Shown: positions 21,257 through 24,703 of the stretch, in pieces | Layout: each line of letters starts with the position of its first letter | How positions within the stretch are numbered: the first letter of the stretch is position 1 | Origin: Acidovorax sp. SRB_14 | Lineage (GTDB): Bacteria > Pseudomonadota > Gammaproteobacteria > Burkholderiales > Burkholderiaceae_C | Assembly (NCBI RefSeq): GCF_012932145.1 | Contig: NZ_MWOK01000016.1 | Coordinates: forward strand, 1-64,000 | Direction: 5' to 3' | DNA length: 64,000 bases | Translations under genes and position numbers: made by a program | Notes under the pieces: generated by a model | Seen by the model: the letters and a program-made list of their open reading frames with translations, nothing else | The model's database searches: none | Told to the model about the DNA's origin: nothing

Positions 21257-22375
21257 CTAGGCCACGGAGGGGCCCCGCGCCACCGCGATCGCCGCGGGTG
21301 CCGACGCAAGGTTGGCGGCTGAAATCACGGCCTGCGCGGCGGCGGTCCCGGTGGCGGACGGTTGCACGACGATTTTGCGCGGTGCAGTGCCGACCGCGAT
21401 TGCCTTCGTCTGGCCGGTGGCGAGGTCCACGGCGCTCACGTCGTTCGAGCCTTCGTTGGTGACATACACGGTTTTGCCGTCCACGGAAGCCTGCCAATGC
21501 GGCTGCTTGCCCACCGCAATCGAACGCACACTCTTGTTCGTCACGGGATCGAACAACTGCAATTCGCCCGGACCTTGGACGACCGCGGTGGCGAACGCCG
21601 CGCCACGGTAGAGTTTGGCCACGTGCGGCGACACGCCGGTCGGCACTTCGGCGACGGTCTTGTCCGTCTCCGGGTCCAGCACCTCGATCGCGTTGAGCCC
21701 GGCCACGGTGACATACAAGGCCTTGCCGTCGTACCCGAACTCGGGATCGCGCGGCGCCTTGTCCAGCGCCAGCGAACGCAAGACGGCGTGCGACGCCAGG
21801 TCGATCACCACCAGCGCGAATTTTCCGGGCGCCTGCGAGGCGACATAGGCGAGCTTGCCGTCCGGCCGAATCGCGATGGTGTGCGGATTCGCCACCGGGA
21901 CCGTCGCCACGACGGCGTTCGTCGCCACGTCGATGAAAGCGACGCGGTTGTCGCCGTAAACCCCGGCGAGCAGGGTCTTGCCATCCGGCGCCATGGCCAG
22001 GCCGTGCGGCGTGTGGCCCACTTCGATGGTCTGGACGACGCGGTCATTCGCCGTGTCGATCACGCTGATGCCGGTGCTGCTTTCGCCACCGACATAGACC
22101 CGGCGGCCGTCGGGCGTAATGCCCATGCCGTGCGGGCCCGCGGCGACGGGCACCGTCGCGACGACTGCGCCCGTCGCCGTGTCGATCACGCTGACCGTGC
22201 TGTCCTTGAAATTGCCGACATAGGCCTTGGGACCACCCGCAAAAGCCGCGATGGCCAGCGACGCCATCGCGGCGCCAGTGACCATGCGCACGAGTTGCAT
22301 CAACCACCGGCGGCATGTCGGCAATGCCGCGATCAAGGTGCCACCACGGTGGGGAAACAGCGAAGACAGCATCAT
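21257..22375 (-). CDS. YVTN-family beta-propeller protein, exported
   Basis: A 372-residue protein with an unusually long N-region before a signal-like segment (about 28-46, MVTGAAMASLAIAAFAG). Repeated YVTN blades follow: AYVGNFKDSTVSVIDTATG, VYVGGESSTGISVID, LYVTVAGLNAIEVLDPET, VYVTNEGSNDVSAVDLATG. These form a YncE-like seven-bladed propeller, probably periplasmic. Such proteins are often linked to metal or quinoprotein systems, but no partner is present. ATG at 22375 follows AGGGGGT; an internal ATG at residue 26 (MQLVRMVTG) would give a more normal signal peptide. Confidence 0.85.
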   Translation of the reverse strand: MMLSSLFPHRGGTLIAALPTCRRWLMQLVRMVTGAAMASLAIAAFAGGPKAYVGNFKDSTVSVIDTATGAVVATVPVAAGPHGMGITPDGRRVYVGGESSTGISVIDTANDRVVQTIEVGHTPHGLAMAPDGKTLLAGVYGDNRVAFIDVATNAVVATVPVANPHTIAIRPDGKLAYVASQAPGKFALVVIDLASHAVLRSLALDKAPRDPEFGYDGKALYVTVAGLNAIEVLDPETDKTVAEVPTGVSPHVAKLYRGAAFATAVVQGPGELQLFDPVTNKSVRSIAVGKQPHWQASVDGKTVYVTNEGSNDVSAVDLATGQTKAIAVGTAPRKIVVQPSATGTAAAQAVISAANLASAPAAIAVARGPSVA

Positions 22376-22603
22376 GCGAACACCCCCTGAATGCCGGAAC
22401 AAACGACCAAGAGATTCGACAGGCAGTACTTTTGGACCGACACGGCGCCACGTTGGTTCCGGCATGCGTGCGGGCCTGTCGGGCCGCCGCAATCGACCTG
22501 TGCGAACGGAGCGATGGGTGGGTTGACCGGGGCGGGCCATGCGCATCTTTCCGGCACTCGGCCGGTTTTATGGCTTTCTCGTCCACAAGCGGGCCGGAAA
22601 CCA

Positions 22604-22651
22604 CATAACGTTATGCTTTGTTTGCATGAATATGCCGCCTGTCTGACAGAC
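22604..22651. promoter_or_regulatory. Cluster of three palindromes, candidate operators
   Basis: CATAACGTTATG, GCATgaatATGC and GTCTGACAGAC lie within 48 bases, 20-60 bases upstream of a possible pckG -10. Each is self-complementary. The cognate regulator is not identifiable. Confidence 0.5.
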
Positions 22652-22734
22652 AAAAACCGGACGGCTTCATAAAATCGTCACCCCAGCCGCTGGTGCAGCA
22701 CCGGGCCATCACACCTGCCGGCTGAGCCCAAGCT

Positions 22735-22835
22735 GTTTTTTCAAAGGCAGCGCTTGGCGCTCGCGCCAACGCAGGCCTGTAACGCGCCCGCCGGTCCGCT
22801 TCCTTTGAAAAAACCGTTTTTCAACTTAAGGAAGC
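22735..22835 (+). promoter_or_regulatory. pckG leader RNA with mutually exclusive helices (candidate RNA switch)
   Basis: Arm A (22735-22752, GTTTTTTCAAAGGCAGCG) is complementary to arm B (22797-22814, CGCTTCCTTTGAAAAAAC) over 18 bases with one mismatch. Arm B (22798-22812) is also complementary to arm C (22817-22835): AAAAA/TTTTT, TTG/CAA, then after a 4-base bulge GCTTCCT/AGGAAGC, giving 15 pairs with loop ACCG. Arm C contains the pckG ribosome site AAGGAAG. A small hairpin (TTGGCG-CTCG-CGCCAA, 22754-22769) lies between A and B. A:B pairing frees the ribosome site; B:C hides it. I do not recognise a known riboswitch class. Confidence 0.75.
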
Positions 22836-22840
22836 TCCCG

Positions 22841-24703
22841 ATGAACTCCCCCCACATGCAGGGCCTGGCCCTCAATGCTCCCGACTATGTCAAACACCCG
22901 CGCCTGCTCGCCTGGGTGGCCGACATGGTGGCGCTGTGCAAGCCCGACGCCATCTACTGGTGCGACGGCAGCGAGGCCGAGTACGACCGCCTGTGCCAGC
23001 AGCTGGTGGATGCCGGCACGCTGCAAAAGCTCAACCCCGCCAAGCGCCCCAGCAGCTTCCTGGCCAAGTCCGATCCCAGCGACGTGGCCCGCGTCGAAGA
23101 CCGCACTTTCATCTGCTCAGAGAAGAAGGAAGACGCCGGCCCGACCAACAACTGGATGGCGCCGGCCGAAATGCGCGCCACGCTGGCGCCGCTGTTTGAC
23201 GGCTGCATGCAGGGCCGCACCATGTACGTGGTGCCGTTCTCCATGGGCCCGCTGGGCAGCCCGATTGCCCACATCGGCATCGAACTGTCCGACAGCGCCT
23301 ATGTGGCCGTGAACATGAAGATCATGACGCGCATGGGCCGCGCGGTGTTCGACGTGCTGGGCACCGACGGCGATTTCGTGCCCTGCGTGCACACCGTGGG
23401 CGCGCCGCTGGCCGCAGGCCAGACGGACGTGAAGTGGCCCTGCAACAAGACCAAGTACATCGTGCACTACCCCGAAACGCGCGAAATCTGGAGCTACGGC
23501 TCGGGCTACGGCGGCAACGCGCTGCTGGGCAAGAAGTGCTTTGCGCTGCGCATCGCCTCGACCATGGGGCGCGACCAGGGCTGGCTGGCCGAGCACATGC
23601 TGATCCTGGGCGTGACCAACCCCGAGGGCAAAAAGTACCACGTCGCGGCGGCCTTCCCTTCGGCGTGCGGCAAGACCAACTTTTCGATGCTCGTGCCGCC
23701 CACCGGCTTTGACGGCTGGAAGGTCACGACGATCGGCGACGACATCGCGTGGATCAAGCCTCAGGCCGACGGCTCGCTGCGCGCCATCAACCCCGAGGCC
23801 GGCTACTTCGGCGTGGCCCCGGGCACGAACTACCACACCAACCCCAACTGCATGGCCAGCCTCGACAAGAACGTGATCTTCACGAACGTCGCGCTGACCG
23901 ACGACGGCGACGTGTGGTGGGAAGGCATGGAAAAGGACACGGGCAGCCTGCCCGACCACCTGATCGACTGGCAAGGCCAGGACTGGACACCCCAGATCGC
24001 CAAGGAAACCGGCGCCAAGGCCGCCCACCCCAATGCGCGCTTCACCGTGGCCGCTACCAACAACCCGGCGCTGGACGAGGCCTGGGACGACCCCAAGGGC
24101 GTGAAGATCGACGCCTTCATCTTCGGCGGCCGCCGCTCGACCACGGTGCCACTGGTGACCGAGGCCCGCAACTGGACCGAAGGCGTCTACATGGCCGCCA
24201 CCATGGGCAGCGAGACCACCGCCGCCGCCGCCGGCCAGCAGGGCGTGGTGCGCCGCGACCCGTTCGCCATGCTGCCCTTCATGGGCTACCACATGAGCGA
24301 CTACTTCCAGCACTGGCTGGACCTGGGCACCAAGGTGCAGGCCAGCGGCGCCACGCTGCCGCGCATCTACACCACCAACTGGTTCCGCAAGGGCGAGGAC
24401 GGCAAGTTCGTCTGGCCCGGCTACGGCGAGAACATGCGCGTGCTCAAGTGGATGATCGACCGCATCGAAGGCCAGGCCGCAGGCCAGCAGACCATGTTCG
24501 GCGTGGCGCCGCAGTACGCGGAGATCAACTGGACCGGCCTGGACTTCAGCCCCGCACAGTTCGAGACCGTCACCGCGATCGACACGGCGGCCTGGCAGGA
24601 CGAACTCAAGTTGCACGACGCACACTTTGACCAGCTGGCCGAGCGCCTGCCCCGGGAACTGCTGGCGACGCGCGCCGCCATCGAGGCACGCCTCGGCGCC
24701 TGA
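22841..24703 (+). CDS. pckG: Phosphoenolpyruvate carboxykinase (GTP)
   Basis: A 620-residue GTP-type PEPCK converting oxaloacetate and GTP to PEP, the entry to gluconeogenesis. The P-loop FPSACGKTN (272-280) carries the hyper-reactive cysteine typical of GTP enzymes. The substrate loop ([17 protein letters not shown]), metal-site motif ([10 protein letters not shown]) and nucleotide-site segment ([14 protein letters not shown]) are all intact. ATG at 22841 follows AAGGAAG at good spacing, and that ribosome site lies inside the competing leader structures. The unit is closed by a terminator. Regulation probably occurs both at the upstream palindromes and through the leader RNA. Confidence 0.97.

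Follow-up and report, generated by a model that had tools for sequence, protein, structure and literature searches.

The leader of pckG in Acidovorax sp. SRB_14 can be read, with a probability of about one half, as a cis-acting translational switch of the Comamonadaceae, in which an anti-Shine-Dalgarno segment (arm B) would pair either with an upstream anti-anti-Shine-Dalgarno segment (arm A) or with the ribosome site. Folding suggests that in a transcript ending at B the A:B helix would form and leave the ribosome site free, while in the complete leader arm A would be taken by upstream pairing (between segments D and E in the window), so that B would pair with segment C and the ribosome site AAGGAAG would be hidden. 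Translation would then proceed in the A:B state and be silenced in the B:C state, with a balance that could be set by transcription speed, by a protein or sRNA, or by a ligand acting on a GCCGAC-repeat element. PEP carboxykinase commits carbon to gluconeogenesis, and the enzyme would thereby be made only when gluconeogenesis is needed. Comparison of sequences points to a leader RNA that is new, restricted to the family and strongly matched only at pckG; its hairpin is solid, and the switch is plausible and apparently lineage-dependent. With its covarying hairpin, its strong matches at pckG only and its conserved 5' element, this family-restricted leader represents a concrete, testable candidate.

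Layout of the pckG leader

Coordinates are positions in the window, that is, the whole stretch of 64,000 nt of contig NZ_MWOK01000016.1 that was analysed. The features of the leader are the following:

22647..22675, + strand: predicted promoter (-35 CAGACA at 22647-22652, -10 TAAAAT at 22670-22675)
22684..22691, + strand: 5' strand of P1, first GCCGAC-type copy, near the predicted transcript start (CAGCCGCT; commonest in relatives CAGCCGAC)
22717..22724, + strand: 3' strand of P1, second copy, just 5' of arm A (GCCGGCTG; commonest in relatives GCCGACTG)
22724..22733, + strand: segment D, which can pair with E and enclose arm A (MFE fold)
22735..22752, + strand: arm A, putative anti-anti-Shine-Dalgarno (GTTTTTTCAAAGGCAGCG)
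22752..22762, + strand: segment E, partner of D (MFE fold)
22753..22796, + strand: variable A-B loop (mean major-base fraction 0.51)
22797..22814, + strand: arm B, putative anti-Shine-Dalgarno, partner of A or of the ribosome site (CGCTTCCTTTGAAAAAAC)
22817..22835, + strand: segment C with the ribosome site AAGGAAG (22828-22834) and the bulge 22825-22828 (TTTTTCAA-CTTA-AGGAAGC)
22841..24703, + strand: pckG, phosphoenolpyruvate carboxykinase (GTP) (NF003253, 1021.7 bits)

Only one sigma-70-like promoter match is present in 22540-22860, compared with a mean of 0.1 in shuffles, and its -10 hexamer lies upstream of arm A, so that the predicted transcript contains A, B and C. Judging from this promoter, the transcript would start near 22681 and carry a leader of about 160 nt; the predicted start is thus upstream of arm A and not downstream of 22752, a position that the sequence-only reading had regarded as incompatible with its model. 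With regard to the relatives, 160 of 233 leaders have a -10-like hexamer at a distance of 75-260 nt from the start codon, compared with 18-32 in five shuffled sets. In 43 leaders of the window's clade, the mean major-base fraction was 0.95 in A, 0.94 in B and 0.87 in C, as opposed to the low value of the A-B loop, and the three segments stand out in these sequences as conserved islands amid variable sequence.

The region further upstream holds other features. A near-palindrome, CATAACGTTATG, followed by TTTGCAT, forms an operator-like site at 22604-22627, and a similar sequence was seen by eye upstream of pckG in many of the relatives listed. An inverted repeat, TGTCTGACAGACA, at 22640-22652 overlaps the predicted -35 element and is present, by eye, in close relatives. 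The divergent neighbour (21257-22402, - strand) encodes a beta-propeller repeat protein (TIGR02276).

A conserved hairpin ahead of the ribosome site

The two arms are complementary over 18 bases with one mismatch, and in this the sequence-only reading was exact: 17 of the 18 positions of 22735-22752 pair with 22797-22814, the remaining one being a C.U mismatch. The energy of this helix is -21.4 (mean -9.1 in dinucleotide shuffles of the upstream part, none of 2000 of which reached the native value), and A:B in the window is a hairpin far beyond chance.

Relatives were taken from the best 80 of at least 593 stretches as pckG loci and from further loci found by DNA searches; two loci without a start were dropped and duplicates were counted once, which gave 120 distinct parsed leaders. 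A:B was kept in 106 of them, by the criterion that at most 1 of 60 mononucleotide shuffles reached the native value, with the arms spaced 4 to 79 nt apart. Among the 14 leaders that missed this criterion, L046 and L078 do show the hairpin by eye, its loop being shorter than the search window allowed, and the remaining misses include several Variovorax and Hydrogenophaga leaders.

An alignment of 77 leaders (A1) was made with MAFFT, structure not being used in aligning; it excludes the 14 misses, five divergent layouts, leaders longer than 125 nt and near-duplicates. In A1, whose sequences were cut at an A arm located by pairing and therefore lean slightly towards structure, A:B presented 95 double-changed cells compared with 35.0 in shuffles (0 of 500 reaching the native count) and a covariation score of 0.219, as against at most 0.101 when slid. 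An alignment-free test placed 50 of 130 leaders in the best 5% (6.5 expected) and 27 of 120 in another set, and a strict rule, which required a hairpin to surpass all 20 of its dinucleotide shuffles, was satisfied by 47 of 130, where about 6 would be expected. A tree-based covariation test gave no pair at E<0.1; its best pair (E 0.147) belongs to A:B, as do 7 of its top 10. The consensus fold of the 43 clade leaders retains 9 pairs only, all of them A:B and one with a double change, since these leaders are too alike for covariation. Across the aligned leaders, A:B is a hairpin that has been conserved immediately ahead of the ribosome site and has undergone compensatory changes. The proposed check for covariation in both helices therefore had a divided outcome: it bore out A:B, and for B:C it gave a moderate signal in one test and none in four.

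Pairing over the ribosome site and predicted exchange

Arm B can alternatively pair with the segment that carries the ribosome site, 22798-22812 with 22817-22835, in 15 pairs around the 4-base bulge, which buries AAGGAAG. This pairing, too, had been described correctly from the sequence, as had its exclusion of A:B, the two helices sharing arm B. The energy of B:C, -16.2 compared with a mean of -7.6, was reached by 16 of 2000 shuffles of C. Of 200 shuffled leaders, 11 attained a looser joint statistic for both helices, open to any segment of the whole leader; the helix pair thus seems unusual, though not extreme, for so GC-rich a leader.

Evidence that B:C has been selected varied with the test. 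At fixed columns of A1 it gave 42 double-changed cells, compared with 21.1 in shuffles (reached by 1 of 500), and slid controls gave 45 (+1) and 46 (+2), with a score of 0.167 compared with 0.153; at these columns B:C is therefore inseparable from its controls. Compared with dinucleotide-shuffled C, p<0.05 was obtained in 4 of 47 leaders, and the best B:C pair of the tree-based test had E 2.6. The idea of B as a compromise between A and C was rejected, as B positions mismatched to A pair with C in 194 of 569 cases, with 197 expected. A permutation gave -7.40 for own pairs as opposed to -6.59 (sd 0.31).

The alignment-free test, which used fixed windows, compared the own C of each leader with the C of leaders whose B was less than 60% alike. 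In the family set, 34 of 130 own pairs fell in the best 10% (mean rank 0.373), compared with 24 for reversed C (0.422), 24 for reversed B (0.439), 15-17 for shuffled C (0.465-0.490) and 16 for coding sequence (0.481); in the best 5% there were 20 of 130, as against 18 for reversed C, 8-11 for shuffles and 7 for coding sequence. In the other set, 30 of 120 reached the best 10% (mean rank 0.338), compared with 11 for reversed C, 16 for reversed B, 11-18 for shuffled C and 9 for coding sequence. The two sets overlap, and the leaders of the family draw (150 genomes from 141 genera, most genera once; 139 of 142 leaders collected and 130 parsed) are still related, and for these reasons the coupling is graded moderate. 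It appears to be real but moderate, present in one alignment-free test and not seen in four tests of other kinds.

The strength of B:C differs between genera, which are named here after the record titles. The window's clade has a strong B:C (GCTTCC/GGAAGC), and own-pair energy and rank show the same for two of three Curvibacter leaders and for some from Ramlibacter (for instance L068, -21.0, rank 0.02). B:C is mostly weak in 13 Variovorax leaders (-4.6 to -11.3, ranks 0.31-0.96), in two from Limnohabitans (ranks 0.73 and 0.89) and in five from Polaromonas (-4.7 to -9.5). The hairpin is kept from genus to genus, whereas the expression platform seems to have been gained in some genera or lost in others.

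Folding considered thermodynamics only, started from the -10-like hexamer or else at a fixed length, and covered the 183 of 233 leaders with a clear ungapped A:B. P(A:B) exceeded 0.5 in 128 of these and P(B:C) in 46, so that many relatives are predicted to stay open. In the full leader of the window P(B:C) was 1.00, with a best energy of -58.0 when A:B was enforced compared with -65.2 when folding was free, because D:E encloses arm A. For clades with a strong B:C, 49 chosen leaders were tried, three of which had no clear ungapped A:B; P(A:B) was above 0.5 in 42 of the other 46 with the RNA ending at B, and P(B:C) was above 0.5 in 36 of 46 full leaders. When A, B and C were kept and the rest was shuffled, the native P(B:C), with a mean of 0.86 vs 0.65, exceeded the shuffled value in 25 out of the 27 leaders compared, which were chosen and are related. 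Folding thus favours A:B in the transcript that stops at B and B:C once the leader is complete, and in the window the two helices exclude each other. P(B:C) in the window was 1.0 at both 20 and 37 °C, the two temperatures folded, which does not aid the idea of a thermosensor; of the riboswitch- or thermosensor-like architecture suggested earlier, the exclusive helices and their predicted exchange stand, and the thermosensor seems unlikely. An intrinsic transcription attenuator was also considered and seems unlikely, neither A:B nor B:C being a GC-rich stem followed by a U run. Two terminator-like sites occur in the region (0.6 in shuffles), and a weak match of five pairs at 22719-22735, which precedes the U run of arm A, is by eye not kept in the leaders of relatives.

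The main rival to the switch, a possible if rather doubtful one, is a constitutive leader hairpin. A:B would insulate an AU-rich ribosome site, aid ribosome loading or protect the mRNA end, and B:C would be a by-product of a chance resemblance, in some clades, between A and the ribosome region. Such a role agrees with the wider retention of A:B than of B:C, with the 128 leaders predicted to stay in A:B, with the conservation of C in sequence even where B mismatches it, and with the different hairpins that other genera carry, by eye, at the same place. However, the B:C coupling lies above most controls, and a full leader predicted to hide its site, as in the window's clade, would be odd for a translation helper.

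These other hairpins come from the parsed leaders of 39 genomes that have pckG and no match there to R1, a model built on A:B. By eye, many present a strong hairpin of different sequence at the same place, such as ATTGGGTCAGG...CCTGACCCAAT with the ribosome region GATTGGGA (L200, L201, L205 and L208). In this ATTGG.../...CCAAT group, to which L222 also belongs, the ribosome region (GATTGGGA or GATTGGA) is complementary to arm B. A third type, roughly GGGATATGGAAAG...CTTTCCACATCC with variants, precedes pckG in L193, L194, L213, L220, L264, L270 and L289, and its ribosome region pairs weakly with arm B in most of them.

The 5' element, distribution and known systems

Upstream of arm A, the GCCGAC copies are conserved beside an otherwise variable 5' region and A-B loop. 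Of 160 leaders, 58 carry two or more copies in the stretch from the -10 hexamer to 60 nt ahead of the start codon, compared with 0-1 in shuffles, and the first GCCGA begins most often 10 nt (45 leaders) or 11 nt (14 leaders) downstream of that hexamer. In the window, the P1 strands CAGCCGCT and GCCGGCTG could form six contiguous pairs (22684-22689 with 22719-22724), the commonest strands of the relatives, CAGCCGAC and GCCGACTG, can also pair, and L031 and L160 have a plain hairpin with 5 nt between the copies. Out of eight pairs tested in 75 rows, which include the window's genome twice and some strands that are probably mispicked, only pair 2-7 beat every shuffle (58 Watson-Crick and 3 G-U, hence 61 of 75 standard; shuffled mean 50.4, maximum 55), the others not rising above shuffles; the strands were picked by motif and not by pairing, and a small number of events could account for the two main variants. 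Mismatches prevail at pairs 4-5 and 7-2, as C.A in 60 and A.C in 57 of the 75 rows. Matches to a P1-type pattern outside pckG in relatives look, by eye, like chance or coding sequence.

D:E is strong in the window (cognate rank 0.02). As a conserved element it was rejected, the own duplex averaging -12.3 compared with -13.1 for those of others in 97 leaders, in a test that is blunt where D and E are conserved in sequence. A bolder form of the switch would make the leader a new class of gluconeogenesis riboswitch, in which P1, with its two conserved C.A mismatches, would sense a metabolite or pH and decide via D:E whether B is captured by A, which would free the ribosome site of pckG; this seems improbable, and the ligand on which the sequence-only reading had speculated (PEP, oxaloacetate or a nucleotide), or an aptamer for one, was not supported.

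With regard to distribution, R1 matched only its own leader and the mirror of that leader in the window's genome up to E=10, and the possibility of a regulon sharing the leader there was consequently rejected at that threshold. Among 150 family genomes, 142 of which have pckG, 67 matched at E<=0.1 under the stricter filters of Infernal, with which weak matches are lost. The 99 matches in these genomes comprise 57, one per genome, placed on the pckG strand within 0-60 nt upstream of the gene, 19 mirrors of these and 23 others. Of the latter, G065:C315 (E 1.2e-6) precedes, by eye, an apparent pckG start at which the contig ends, the G052 match lies about 120 nt before pckG, and the remaining 21, away from pckG, are weak (E 0.0065-0.092). 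At E<=0.0063, 55 of 56 non-mirror matches are beside an annotated pckG match, or 56 of 56 if G065 is accepted. Ten of 250 order-level genomes matched; in the six that belong to the family the best match was at pckG in every case, and the matches of the four outside it were weak (E 0.016-0.09), their fetched flanks containing no pckG.

An sRNA or RNA-binding protein acting in trans could instead recognise C, arm A or the GCCGAC copies, with the hairpin presenting the site. Such recognition would suit the sequence conservation of C and of the GCCGAC copies, repeated in the 58 of 160 leaders mentioned above; nevertheless, the genome holds no R1 match at E<=10 beyond the leader and its mirror, and besides A there is one near match to the B core elsewhere, which is about the rate estimated for chance, and this explanation is considered unlikely. 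A DNA-level operator with A and B as inverted half-sites of a transcription factor has very little to recommend it: the near-perfect inverted repeats and the other palindromes of the promoter region are what it would predict, but the arms of the 106 leaders are variably spaced and change together to other sequences, which RNA pairing fits better. Equally improbable is chance, by which a GC-rich leader would offer many pairings with the B:C of the window as one of them, in keeping with the 11 shuffled leaders of 200 and with three B:C tests (fixed columns, shuffled C and A-mismatched positions) that bear no sign of selection, but chance is excluded for A:B, and B:C lies above most controls in two overlapping sets.

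The switch remains the favoured reading, and databases offer no ready family for it. The sequence-only reading knew of no cis-regulatory RNA class for pckG, in line with an Rfam search of 22735-22841 in which no family reached its gathering score; at eight loci (E<=0.1) Rfam gave two sub-threshold matches, neither overlapping A-B-C. In the portions of the openly licensed literature covered, no pck leader RNA or cis-acting RNA control of pckG was found, and a term search of the main texts of PMC2864571, PMC11109978 and PMC8632094 returned no mention of pck; PMC2864571 lists a 'Burkholderiales-1' motif, known here by name alone.

The architecture of the pckG leader resembles that of translational riboswitch platforms, with three segments of which the middle one pairs upstream or with the ribosome site. 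Anti-Shine-Dalgarno and anti-anti-Shine-Dalgarno segments of this kind occur in the thiM TPP and add adenine riboswitches. Unlike these, the pckG leader has no recognised aptamer or ligand, and B:C is not kept in all relatives. As in RNA thermometers, of which ROSE and fourU are examples, the ribosome site is predicted to be buried in an AU-containing hairpin; in contrast to them, B:C is predicted alike at the two temperatures and a second, exclusive hairpin is present. The same window contains an ordinary known leader, the SAH riboswitch RF01057 (4096-4191, - strand, 49.3 bits), with which the pckG leader shares a putative role as a cis-regulatory leader in the same genome, and from which it differs in reaching no Rfam gathering score. 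Finally, like the orphan leader motifs described in the parts of PMC2864571 consulted, it is a structured RNA found by comparison and associated with one gene family in one bacterial group.
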